From NCBI RefSeq assembly GCF_030408775.1, contig NZ_CP047210.1, positions 496,001 through 560,000 on the forward strand: DNA of 64,000 nucleotides. The letters are read 5' to 3'. The notes under the pieces are model-generated. The model saw only the letters and a list, made by a program, of their open reading frames with translations, ran no database searches and was not told the DNA's origin. The position numbers were made by a program, and so were the translations under genes. Origin of the DNA: Corynebacterium fournieri (lineage in GTDB: Bacteria; Actinomycetota; Actinomycetes; Mycobacteriales; Mycobacteriaceae). Shown here in pieces: positions 40,485 to 44,360 of the stretch; positions within the stretch are counted from its first letter, which is position 1, and each line of letters opens with the position of its first letter.

Positions 40485-40945
40485 GGGGCGCTGATTTCGG
40501 CGAACTGCGCCCCAGTCAGCGCGGCTAGGTCCTGCGGGGCCAGCCGGGCCGAAAGGCCGCGCTGGCCGGCAGAGACGGTGATGGCTGGGAGGTCGGCCAC
40601 GGAGGCATCGATAAGCGTCGCAAGCTTTTGCATCGTGCCGAGCGGGGAGATGCCGCCGACGACGTAACCCGTGGCGCGCTGCGCTTTGGCCGGGTTCGCC
40701 ATCTCCGCGCGCTTCCAGCCGAGCGCCTTTGCCGCGGCCTTGAGCGACAGGTGCCCGGCCACTGGCACACAGCAGATAGCCAAGTCGCGCTCGTGGGCGA
40801 TGACCAACGTCTTGAGCACCGCAGCCGGATCCAGTCCGAGCTCGGCTGCGGCATGCTCGCCGAAGTGGTCCTGGCCGGGGGAGTAGGTGAGCACCTCGTG
40901 CGCGGTGCCTTTGAGTGCTGACAGTGCGTGAGTCTTCTCGGCCAT
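40481..40945 (-). CDS. YbaK/EbsC-type aminoacyl-tRNA deacylase
   Basis: 154 residues. Cys-tRNA(Pro)/Cys-tRNA(Cys) deacylase family, correcting mischarged tRNA. Conserved stretch [16 protein letters not shown] with the binding Lys context, plus [21 protein letters not shown] and the opening [20 protein letters not shown]. Start 40945 lies 6 bases after TACCCT on the minus strand. Divergent from sigH, with 45 bases between the start codons. Confidence 0.88.
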
Positions 40946-40977
40946 GGGGACAGGGTAGCGGCGCACAAATGGGGCCC

Positions 40978-40983
40978 TACAAT
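40978..40983 (+). promoter_or_regulatory. sigH -10 box
   Basis: TACAAT, 7 bases before the ATG at 40991. It matches the housekeeping sigma pattern and would give a leaderless sigH message. Confidence 0.55.
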
Positions 40984-40990
40984 GGCGGGC

Positions 40991-41659
40991 ATGCCCGAAA
41001 CCGAGCCGGACAACGGCGTAAGCGACGACCTGAAGGCCCGCTTCGACGAGGAAGCGATGCCGCTTTTGGACCAGCTGTACGGCGGCGCGCTGCGCATGAC
41101 GCGCAACCCGCAAGACGCAGAAGACCTGGTGCAGGAGACCTACTTAAAGGCCTACAAAAACTTCGGCAGCTTCACACCGGGCACCAACCTCAAGGCGTGG
41201 CTGTATCGGATTATGACCAACACGTACATTAACTCGTACCGCAAAAAGCAGCGCCGCCCGCTGGAGACGTCTGCGGACGAGGTGACGGACAACCAGCTCT
41301 ACACCTCCAGCTCCCACGACTCCACCGGCTTGGAGTCCGCCGAGGTTGAGGCGCTGAAATCCATGCCGAACTCCCGGATCTCGGACGCGCTCAACGCGCT
41401 GAACGAGGACTACCGCATGGTGGTCTACTACGCGGATGTAGAGGGGATGGCCTACAAGGAAATCGCGGAGGTGATGGACATTCCCATCGGCACTGTGATG
41501 AGCCGATTGCACCGCGGAAGAAAACAGCTGCGCGGGATGTTGAAAGACGTGGCACAGGAGCGAGGCATCGGCCTCGACCACGCCGATATGGCAACATCCG
41601 CCGGCACTGCTGGCACTGCCGGCACGCAAGACACCGCACAGGACGCGAAGGAGAAGTAA
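40991..41659 (+). CDS. sigH: RNA polymerase sigma factor SigH
   Basis: 222 residues, SigR/SigH group of ECF sigma factors for thiol-oxidative and heat stress. Region 2 contains [17 protein letters not shown] and [16 protein letters not shown]; region 4 contains [27 protein letters not shown]. The C-terminal tail is Thr/Ala-rich with short GTAGTAGT repeats. Its TAA overlaps the rshA ATG by one base. Expected targets include thioredoxin, mycothiol and Clp genes; whcE nearby is a target in C. glutamicum as I recall it. Confidence 0.94.
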
Positions 41660-41937
41660 TGTCCACCGGACACACCCACACCGACGCTCATGGCTGCGAA
41701 GCCACTCACCGCTTGCTGTGCGAGCTGTTCGATGCGGACACCCCGCCGGCGCGCAGGGAGGAAATCCGCAAGGACCTGGCCGCGTGCCCGGAGTGTCTTG
41801 CCGTTGCCCAGTCCGAGCGTGACGTGCGCGCCATAGTGCGCGAGTGTTGCGGGCCGGCCAAGGCCCCAGAACCTCTGCGCCAGCGCATCGTTGCCTCTCT
41901 CACCACGGTGACCTACACCGAAGTTCATTACCGCTAG
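41659..41937 (+). CDS. rshA: Anti-sigma factor RshA
   Basis: 92 residues, zinc-binding anti-sigma factor for SigH. A distal Cys (C21 in CELFD) and C43/C46 (AACPECL) are present, but the position four before C43, His in the classical H-x3-C-x2-C pattern, is Asp39. Two extra cysteines occur as RECCGP. Ribosome site GAAGGAGAAGTA and the TAATG overlap couple it to sigH. Oxidation would release SigH. Confidence 0.88.
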   Translation: MSTGHTHTDAHGCEATHRLLCELFDADTPPARREEIRKDLAACPECLAVAQSERDVRAIVRECCGPAKAPEPLRQRIVASLTTVTYTEVHYR

Positions 41938-41981: not shown

Positions 41982-42062
41982 CGTGTGGGAGGAGCGTTGT
42001 TTGCTTATCGACGCCCCATCGTCCCGCAACGGGGGTAAAAAGCGGGGGTAGAGCGTAACGCG

Positions 42063-42383
42063 GGATTGGTGAACAATCCGCGGACTTTTGAACAATCTGG
42101 CCTGTCCGCGGGGTTCGGGGAATGGAAAAACCGATAACTGAGAAACTATGAATTGTCTATACGTGCAAAGGCGCAGGTCATAGCGGGGATTGGCTCCAAT
42201 GTGTGGATATGTCTCGACACGCATAAAATGCATTAACGGCGGATTGTTCAACCATCCTCCACGGGGACGGAGCAGATCGTTGAACAATGTTTTTAAAGAT
42301 CATATCCACAACGGTGGATTGGTGAACAATCCGCAGGCAAGAACGTGTAGAAACGTTGAACAATCCGTAAACAATGTTCAACG
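42063..42383. repeat. Cluster of TGAACAATC-type repeats
   Basis: Six exact GAACAAT copies: plus strand at 42071, 42090, 42282, 42324 and 42358; minus strand at 42243-42249. The 19-mer GGATTGGTGAACAATCCGC occurs identically at 42063-42081 and 42316-42334; each is an inverted repeat GGATTG-gtgaa-CAATCC. A 9-bp inverted repeat CGTTGAACA/TGTTCAACG spans 42354-42383. The surrounding 41982-42507 is non-coding; rows here run about 37-50% G+C against roughly 65% nearby. Likely a multi-site operator for the metzincin gene downstream. Confidence 0.65.
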
Positions 42384-42507
42384 ATTTGGGGAATTTTTCA
42401 GGCATTCTTTCTGCGTTTTACCTGCGCATAAACAGTGCATAAACTCTTGGCTGTAACAAAGAGAAAAAGCCCCAAGCAACCGGGACTGAATCCAAGGAGA
42501 AACCGAG

Positions 42508-43863
42508 ATGCGAGCAGCATTCCGAAACAGTGTCGCAGCGGGCCTCGCTGCAGCAATCGCCTTCTCCGGCGTGAACGTCGCAGAAGCGGCAGCTGAATTC
42601 GAGCTGGCTCCCATGGTTAGCAACACCGCTGCCATGGCGGACTCCGACAGTGACGGTCTCCCGGACATCTGGGAACAAGAGGGGGTCGTGCTGGCCGACG
42701 GCACGGAGATCCCTCTGCCGGACTGGGGCGCGGACCCGAACCGCCCGGACCTGTTTGTCCAGCTGAACTGGATGGCATCCGAATACGACACCCTCGGCTG
42801 CGATACCCGCAAGCTTCAGGAGTGTGCAGACGCGAACCGTGCCTCTTACGCCCCGTCCAAGCAGTCCTTGGACGAGCTAGTGAATCTGTTCGATGCGCAC
42901 GGCATCACCCTTCACATCGATGCCGGCGCGCATTACTCGAATATTCCGCACTACGCGAAGCGCTTCGGGGGCGAGACCCTGGATTACCGCCCCGTGTACT
43001 TCGACGGCAGCATCCACGAAGCGATCCAGCTGCTGAATACGGTGGAGGATCTCGGCGATCGCGCCAACATCTTCCGTCCTGGCGTGCTCGGCGACCGGAT
43101 GCGCGCAGGCTCCAACACGACGGGCCTGTCCCTGGTGGGCGACAACTCCTTCTACGTTGCAAACCCGGGCGGCCGTGCAACGGACGAGCAGGTACGCAAC
43201 ACCATCCTGCACGAGTTTGGCCACACTCTCGGCCTGCGCCACTGGGGAGCACAGAAGTACACCGGCAGCATTGCTGAGGGGTCGCCGATGCAAGAGGCGT
43301 ACCACTCGGTGATGAACTACGACCGCCAGTTCGACTACTTCAACTACTCCGAACAGCCGTACTTCGCGGATACTCCGGAAGGCAAGCTCTTGGTGCCGGC
43401 TGACTGGGATTCGCTGGAGATGGACAACATCCGCATCGGCGCCTACGCCGAATCCATCGGCGCTCGCGCCAAGGCGGAGGACGAGGTCGAGATCGAGCAG
43501 CCGGAAGAGCGTATTGAGGTGGAAAAGCCCGCGCCGGTCGAGGTCGCGGACGACAACAATGCCCCGCAGGTGGGTCACGCGGCCAACAAAGCAGAAGCGA
43601 TGCCGGGCTCGCTCCCCACCGGGAAGCCGGTGGGGCAGAAAGCGCCTGTCGAGGTCGAAAAGCCAGAAAAGACTGAGGAACCGGCAAAGGTTGAAAAGGC
43701 TGAGCAGCCTGCCAAGGAGGTGAAGGCCGAGAAGAAAGCCAAAAAGAAGGTCGACTCCAAGGCTGCTGGCTCCCAAGTCAACGTCGCAGCCATCATCGGT
43801 GGTGTGGTCGTCGCCCTCGCTGCCCTGGGTATCGGCTACGGTGTCCTGTTCATGAACAAGTAG
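42508..43863 (+). CDS. Membrane-anchored metzincin-like metalloprotease
   Basis: 451 residues. Signal peptide (about 1-28), then a Ca-binding DSDSDGLPDIWE loop, a catalytic domain with H235, E236, H239 and H245 in HEFGHTLGLRH and a Met-turn SVMNY with M269, followed by about 130 residues of Glu/Lys/Pro-rich stalk, and a C-terminal membrane helix (VNVAAIIGGVVVALAALGIGY) ending in MNK. No LPxTG is seen. Such a protein would display a zinc protease outside the cell. Strong site AAGGAGAAACCGAG before the ATG. Not tied to a named family; the upstream repeat cluster suggests tight control. Confidence 0.82.
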   Translation: MRAAFRNSVAAGLAAAIAFSGVNVAEAAAEFELAPMVSNTAAMADSDSDGLPDIWEQEGVVLADGTEIPLPDWGADPNRPDLFVQLNWMASEYDTLGCDTRKLQECADANRASYAPSKQSLDELVNLFDAHGITLHIDAGAHYSNIPHYAKRFGGETLDYRPVYFDGSIHEAIQLLNTVEDLGDRANIFRPGVLGDRMRAGSNTTGLSLVGDNSFYVANPGGRATDEQVRNTILHEFGHTLGLRHWGAQKYTGSIAEGSPMQEAYHSVMNYDRQFDYFNYSEQPYFADTPEGKLLVPADWDSLEMDNIRIGAYAESIGARAKAEDEVEIEQPEERIEVEKPAPVEVADDNNAPQVGHAANKAEAMPGSLPTGKPVGQKAPVEVEKPEKTEEPAKVEKAEQPAKEVKAEKKAKKKVDSKAAGSQVNVAAIIGGVVVALAALGIGYGVLFMNK

Positions 43864-44096: not shown

Positions 44097-44360
44097 TTAT
44101 GCGGAGAGGCGGGCGCGGTTGCGGGCGCGTGCCTTGTTGCGACGCTTGAGCGCGCGACGCTCCTCCTCGGACAGGCCGCCCCAGACGCCGGCGTCCTGAC
44201 CGGTCTCCAGTGCCCACTTCAGGCACTGGGAGGTGACGGGGCAGCGGTGGCAGACCAGCTTGGCCTGGGCGATCTGGCTCAGGGCCGGACCGGAGTTGCC
44301 GACCGGGAAGAACAGTTCCGGGTCCTCGTCGCGGCAGATAGCTTCGTGGCGCCAATCCAT
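44097..44360 (-). CDS. whcE: WhiB1-type regulator WhcE
   Basis: 87 residues. Cluster ligands are C9, C37, C40 and C46; GVWGGLSEEERRAL is the WhiB turn, and the tail is Lys/Arg-rich (KRRNKARARNRARLSA). Spacing matches WhiB1, and gene position after sigH-rshA matches whcE of C. glutamicum, a positive regulator of oxidative-stress response as I recall it. AGGAGAGTCATCATC precedes the ATG. A roughly 450-base non-coding region lies upstream. Confidence 0.9.
   Translation of the reverse strand: MDWRHEAICRDEDPELFFPVGNSGPALSQIAQAKLVCHRCPVTSQCLKWALETGQDAGVWGGLSEEERRALKRRNKARARNRARLSA

Follow-up and report, generated by a model that had tools for sequence, protein, structure and literature searches.

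Gene content of the locus

The stretch of DNA analysed here (the window; 64,000 nucleotides of Corynebacterium fournieri contig NZ_CP047210.1) contains a gene for a metzincin of 451 amino acids, with an array of short repeats upstream of it. The genes around the array are as follows:

40928..41659, plus strand: ECF-type sigma factor gene (Pfam Sigma70_r2/r4_2), upstream of the array and outside it
41659..41937, plus strand: small ORF overlapping the sigma factor gene, no Pfam match; presumably anti-sigma-like, judging by its position
42508..43863, plus strand: surface metzincin gene, 451 aa, with HEFGHTLGLRH zinc motif and Met-turn
44097..44360, minus strand: WhiB regulator gene (Pfam Whib), downstream of the metzincin gene

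Residues H235, E236, H239, H245 and M269 of the metzincin are invariant among 12 homologues. The protein shares the HEXXHXXGXXH motif and the downstream Met-turn with metzincins of the serralysin and myroilysin types, and weak profile matches of its zinc-site region pointed to alkaline protease/serralysin and myroilysin (E-value = 0.045 or worse). It differs from them in matching no Pfam or NCBIfam family and in being apparently membrane-anchored, with, by inspection, a signal-like N-terminus and a C-terminal hydrophobic anchor. The genome contains three such short-form metzincin genes in all; the two paralogues (C1:13315-14229, minus strand, and C1:63769-65010, plus strand) share 52 and 72% identity with the window protein.

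The repeat array

Positions 42064-42386, before the metzincin gene, hold seven copies (S1-S7) of a palindrome with the consensus GATTGNTSAACAATC. The unit is a 15-bp odd palindrome, GATTGTTSAACAATC (GATTGTT-S-AACAATC), in which the central base is G or C. The sites, together with the other elements recognized around them, are listed here:

42031-42037 and 42044-42050, plus strand: GGGGGTA pair, just upstream of S1
42064..42078, plus strand: operator S1, GATTGGTGAACAATC, 13/14
42083..42097, plus strand: operator S2, GACTTTTGAACAATC, 12/14
42221..42229, plus strand: putative -10 element of the upstream promoter P2, GCATAAAAT
42242..42256, minus strand: operator S3, GATTGTTCAACCATC, 13/14; the sole inverted TGAACAATC copy
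42275..42289, plus strand: operator S4, GATCGTTGAACAATG, 12/14
42317..42331, plus strand: operator S5, GATTGGTGAACAATC, 13/14
42351..42365, plus strand: operator S6, AAACGTTGAACAATC, 11/14
42372..42386, minus strand: operator S7, CAATGTTCAACGATT, 10/14
42417..42445, plus strand: putative core promoter P1, TTTACC-N17-TAAACT

The seven copies agree with GATTGTTSAACAATC at 10-13 of 14 positions (three of them at 13), so that all are close and none is perfect, and the centre-to-centre distances from S1 to S7 are 19, 159, 33, 42, 34 and 21 bp. An earlier note on this DNA had described six GAACAAT copies, five in one orientation and one inverted, and a 19-bp unit occurring twice, 253 bp apart. Both were recovered: GAACAAT at 42071, 42090, 42282, 42324 and 42358 of the plus strand, with ATTGTTC at 42243, and GGATTGGTGAACAATCCGC at 42063 and 42316. 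On the plus strand of the whole window, GAACAAT occurs only in those five copies. The 9-bp inverted repeat noted nearest the gene also exists (CGTTGAACA at 42354 and TGTTCAACG at 42375), but it is better read as S6 facing S7; likewise, the repeats are real, but seven copies of one 15-bp odd palindrome describe them better than a 7-mer with assorted inverted repeats.

The repeats had been judged far above chance, and neither shuffles nor Markov sequences of intergenic composition ever matched the observed counts. Allowing up to three mismatches, GATTGTTGAACAATC gave 11 matches (on both strands, at six places) in the whole window against 0.47 expected, a number that none of 100 shuffles reached. 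Within the 64 kb, all six places that fit the palindrome at 11/14 or better, and seven of the ten at 10/14 or better, lie inside the stretch, whereas 3000 Markov sequences of intergenic composition held at most two places at 11/14. The description of the stretch as AT-rich holds in a relative sense (G+C of 0.47 for 42063-42383 vs 0.66 for the window). ORFs of at least 80 aa overlap 42063-42383 (88 aa on the plus strand; 117 and 144 aa on the minus strand); because the paralogous regions diverge between the sites, we take the stretch as non-coding, as the earlier note did.

A DnaA-box cluster or replication element (boxes resembling TTATCCACA) was considered and rejected, since the two 8/9 boxes of the window copy, an inverted pair of ATATCCACA words (42202, minus strand; 42302, plus strand), do not recur in the rest of the aligned arrays. 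The GGGGGTA pair is present in all 11 distal regions aligned and is possibly a site for another factor.

Arrays in the genome and in related species

When the 2.39-Mb genome was searched with GATTGNTNAACNATC at up to two mismatches, clusters were found at only three places (C1:14331-14579, C1:63339-63666 and the window array), each preceding a metzincin paralogue, a distribution unlike that of a motif scattered at random over intergenic sites. A metzincin profile search of 242 genomes gave 38 matches in 21 genomes, of which 24 were long-form and 14 short-form, the latter including a fragment in genome G163. The array precedes all 13 of the readable intact short-form genes, from six species: three in C. 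fournieri, three in C. haemomassiliense (G187), two each in C. sp. MSK008 (G038), G151 and G188, and one in G016. Eleven of these 13 arrays have seven sites at 10/14 or better, that of G016 (G016_1) has six and the C. fournieri array G000_C has five; an array likewise stands upstream of the G163 fragment, with an IS-like ORF in between. None of the 18 long-form loci scanned (of 24; two of the 18 are partly readable at one end) has an array, and two of them have a single match at 11 or better. The array, which the earlier note had assigned to the downstream protease, is thus kept before all short-form genes that are intact and readable. As side observations, G163 holds six arrays in one genome, with one metzincin copy interrupted by an IS-like ORF, and C. 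fournieri and G202 each have a contig of exactly 2389603 bases, yet their metzincin contents differ.

A pattern search in six genomes added arrays beyond the loci of the profile search, so that at least 28 arrays in 11 genomes are known, of which 28 were examined. The next gene is readable at 14 of them, being an intact short-form metzincin at 13 and an interrupted one at the last; four others stop at a contig end. Seven sites are present in 22 arrays, six in three and five in three (including the incompletely readable G121_3). The S5-S6-S7 distances are 34 and 21 bp in 27 of the 28, partly by construction, as these sites served as the anchor. In 25 of those 27 the distance from S4 forward to S6 is 76 or 75 bp, and in G000_C and G077_2 it is 66 bp.

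For a comparison of columns, arrays with block indels (G000_C, G077_2, G121_3, G187_3 and G163_6) were excluded; redundancy filtering, by which an array sharing 95% identity or more with a preceding one was discarded, then reduced the other 23 to 17. In the S3-S7 block of these 17 arrays, 49 of 75 columns within the sites are invariant vs two of 90 between them; the mean majority frequency is 0.92 in the sites vs 0.58 elsewhere, and none of 164 rotations of the site mask did as well. At S3 and S4 the relatives have either G or C in the centre while the arms are mostly kept, as would be expected of a dimer site with an uncontacted centre. A recent acquisition of the element, which the earlier note had offered as an alternative, is unsupported, since the arrays occur in 11 genomes with conserved sites and diverged spacers; this footprint of conserved site columns contradicts a recently acquired or neutral repeat.

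Some intervals differ among the arrays by exactly 10 bp: S4-S5 is 32 instead of 42 bp and S6-P1 is 49 instead of 59 bp in G000_C and G077_2, which may reflect one inherited event, and S1-S2 is 29 instead of 19 bp in G185. These shifts hint, as a suggestion only, at helical-turn phasing; the variable gap between S2 and S3 and an interval of 47 bp in five of the G163 arrays are less simply accommodated.

Promoter-like elements

Two conserved elements of the array region, at 42417-42445 and 42221-42229, can be read as promoters P1 and P2. P1 is fully readable in 20 arrays: 17 match TTTAC-N18-TAAA[CG]T, and the other three, all from G163, read TTTACC-N17-TAACCT. Seven partly readable copies agree as far as they go, and one array ends before P1. 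The element begins 59 bp from the centre of S6, or 49 bp in the two arrays with the shorter interval. For P2, GCATANNAT is kept in 25 of the 28 arrays, 27-28 bp before the centre of S3 and 136-137 bp before S6 (102 bp in the incompletely readable G121_3, which was anchored on S5); it is missing from G000_C, G077_1 and G077_2, and no convincing -35 element was seen with it. S3 lies just downstream of the putative P2 -10 element, whereas P1 has no operator so placed. Words of the GCATA type are common to both promoter-like elements (42221-42232 and 42417-42445) and could be promoter parts or sites of a second regulator. Promoters of the ECF-sigma type have the pattern GGAAT...GTT; such a promoter before the metzincin gene was rejected, as the pattern is not conserved in the array alignment.

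Identity of the operator and a candidate regulator

According to a report of May 2026 (PMC13274462), PxpR of C. glutamicum is a 5-oxoproline-sensing GntR repressor of pxpTABC, which binds 5-oxoproline with a KD of 726 nM. The same report (PMC13274462) places the pxpT operator, 5'-agattgttcaacaatct-3', downstream of the promoter -10 region, for which TAACCT is the putative hexamer, and reports that altering or deleting the site raised reporter output 6.5-fold. By comparison of the sites, the array motif equals this published operator; the motif, which the earlier note could not connect with a known corynebacterial regulator, therefore has a published counterpart. In genome G178, which we take, partly by gene context, to be C. 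glutamicum ATCC 13032, the exact 17-mer agattgttcaacaatct stands at divergent transporter-like and pxpR-like ORFs, followed by pxpA, and the exact 13-bp core occurs once.

In C. fournieri, exact ATTGTTSAACAAT was found only at C1:41766 and C1:724144. A PxpR-type gene with GntR and FCD domains (Pfam E-value = 2.9e-19 and 6.9e-13) lies at C1:723419-724081, directly upstream of pxpA (LamB_YcsF) and then a fused pxpBC (CT_C_D + CT_A_B), and the palindrome TATTGTTCAACAATG stands before it at C1:724143, ending 7 bp before a -10-like hexamer, TATACT. Its product is 33.5% identical to C. glutamicum PxpR overall, a level at which the ligand is assumed from context, and matches it at 34 of 59 positions of the helix-turn-helix region, with GVSRNTLREAF and IPNRGVF intact. 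At an E-value of 0.001 the genome encodes only two FCD proteins. The second matches at 17 of 40 positions, lacks both of these motifs and thus the recognition helix, and is encoded at a locus where no palindrome reaches 11/14, so that it was rejected as regulator of the arrays. All 11 array genomes contain a match to the PxpR-type regulator at 82% identity or more, possibly broken in two of them (in G163 it contains one stop; in G077, which is 77% complete, it is split into two pieces at separate places).

The system resembles that of C. glutamicum (PMC13274462) in the 15-bp palindrome core and in a GntR protein with the same recognition helix, encoded next to the 5-oxoprolinase genes. It differs in that one site before pxpT is described there, whereas five to seven sites precede surface metzincins here, and in that the regulator gene here stands directly upstream of pxpABC with the palindrome before the regulator gene. 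These arrays of five to seven PxpR-type sites, at near-fixed spacing and with two promoter-like elements, before short-form metzincins are what is new here. Operators of the FadR subfamily of GntR proteins have the form TNGTNNNACNA, which TTGTTSAACAA fits; unlike them, the sites described here are clustered in a fixed multi-site layout. In the open PMC literature, nothing was found that joins oxoproline, GntR, protease and operator, no Corynebacterium metzincin work on such control was recognized by titles and abstract openings, and PxpR appeared in PMC13274462 only among the matches listed.

Proposed control of the metzincin gene

That a dedicated regulator binds the array, as the earlier note had proposed, is very probable as a prediction, with clusters of the motif found genome-wide only before metzincins. 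We put at roughly 0.7 the probability that a PxpR-type (GntR/FCD) protein controls the protease gene by way of the array, be it as repressor or as activator, because the site equals the PxpR operator, because the genome encodes a PxpR-type protein that shares the PxpR recognition helix and has its own palindrome, and because the array is conserved before every readable intact short-form gene. The sign is the least certain step; we favour repression. PxpR dimers would occupy S1-S7. The two distal sites, S1 and S2, and the proximal group from S3 to S7, which enclose P2 and lie upstream of P1, would cooperate and together repress both promoters; S3 would act from just downstream of the P2 start, and P1 would be silenced by looping or by a nucleoprotein block. 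Release of PxpR by intracellular 5-oxoproline would then raise synthesis of the surface protease along with the pxp operon. Repression by looping between several operators is known from the lac and gal operators of E. coli, which are similar in the regular distances at which distal and proximal operators flank promoters; they have two or three operators, compared with up to seven here, where looping is only proposed.

The same regulator and array might also work with the opposite sign, PxpR activating P1 through dimers at S7 and S6 that contact RNA polymerase, in which case the protease would be made without 5-oxoproline, the reverse of the pxp operon. All sites lie upstream of P1 and, unlike a simple repressor site, none overlaps it; the predicted P1 start is about 73 bp downstream of S7 and about 94 bp downstream of S6, and the distance from S6 to P1 is either fixed or shorter by exactly 10 bp. 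Such positions would suit an activator too and keep this variant alive. FadR-type GntR proteins can repress as well as activate, which also counts for it. However, PxpR of C. glutamicum is a repressor (PMC13274462), and both the palindrome 7 bp before TATACT at the regulator gene and the position of S3 just after P2 are repressor-like, so we consider activation rather unlikely. We hold it distinctly less probable that the array is the target of another regulator that shares the half-site, be it of the GntR type or unrelated, and that PxpR is only a relative. The array sites are imperfect, operators of the TNGTNNNACNA type are shared among GntR proteins while the survey in C. fournieri covered FCD proteins, and the PxpR-type match is perhaps broken in G163 and G077, both of which have arrays; yet the only other FCD protein lacks the recognition-helix residues, and the PxpR-type match at 82% or more is found in every array genome.

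The many sites (19 over the three C. fournieri arrays, and more over the six of G163) could also serve chiefly as a sponge that soaks up PxpR and makes pxp induction steeper, with the protease as a bystander, which we think very improbable, given that the readable next genes are all of the metzincin family (13 intact, one interrupted) and that the distances to P1 and P2 are fixed, as no sponge needs. Hardly credible at all is a repeat without function that has travelled with duplicated genes or with a mobile element: the arrays do go with the paralogues, and G163 has six copies, one of them beside the IS-like ORF, but the site columns are conserved and the spacing is kept while the spacers have diverged, and the S4-S5 and S6-P1 changes in G000_C and G077_2 are each of exactly 10 bp.

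On PxpR-type control, a metabolic repressor appears to have been co-opted for the control of surface proteases as its operators multiplied. The 2026 description of this regulator concerned the use of 5-oxoproline in C. glutamicum; the arrays would tie it to surface proteases of other corynebacteria, with a concrete candidate ligand, and would represent a natural case of regulon expansion by multiplication of operators at fixed spacing, in which sites, spacers, promoters and paralogues can be compared across species. PMC11077960 describes 2-pyrrolidone-5-carboxylic acid, a synonym of 5-oxoproline, as a skin-specific amino acid derivative, and as a skin metabolite it could act as a cue of the skin surface. 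The odds seem evenly balanced to us for a wider proposal, that in one clade a one-site metabolic repressor has become, through multiplication of its operator to as many as seven and their duplication along with the gene copies, a 5-oxoproline-responsive switch for surface metalloproteases and for the secreted-looking protein of C1:40243-41652 (see below), with 5-oxoproline as the skin-surface cue that tunes surface proteolysis. If skin 5-oxoproline is indeed the cue, host chemistry would be linked to the surface proteolysis of a commensal.

Palindromes elsewhere in the genus

The exact 13-bp core occurs in 128 of the 242 genomes and a GntR homologue (E-value of 1e-25 or better) in 118; both are present in 103, the core only in 25, the gene only in 15 and neither in 99 (Fisher p = 1.8e-27, uncorrected for phylogeny). 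At the closest regulator loci (at least 77% identity), a palindrome of 11-13/14 stands beside the regulator gene in 17 of 17, and at more distant ones (42-47%) 12 of 13 have none of 11/14 or better at the regulator gene. Among the matches listed, 13 palindromes were sampled, and 11 of these are near pxpA or a PxpR-type homologue: six immediately precede pxpA, two are flanked by a pxpR-like gene and a pxpA homologue, and three lie 2-3 kb from a pxpR-like gene (the one of these looked at further has an NRAMP-type transporter and a D-Glu_cyclase there).

Within C. fournieri, the gene of the secreted-looking protein (C1:40243-41652, minus strand; no Pfam match) has a 13/14 palindrome centred 120 bp upstream. 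In G187, G188, G002 and G151 the homologous genes carry a 13/14 site 118-122 bp upstream, and the site before the G016 homologue is perfect, at an extrapolated distance of about 77 bp. The gene is a likely further target of the PxpR-type regulator. A 12/14 site also lies about 245 bp upstream of C1:18281-22717, which encodes a surface-type protein of 1478 aa. Since the site is uneven among the homologues (13/14 and 12/14 before two of them in G016, 11/14 in G188, none of 11 or better in G151), this gene is left as a tentative target.

The other two of the 13 sampled palindromes are located elsewhere, one inside an ORF of 1012 aa and one at proB/proA-like genes. The latter, at G040:C33:51274, is a perfect palindrome between the proB-like and the proA-like gene, seen in one genome, and perhaps represents an extension of the regulon to proline synthesis.
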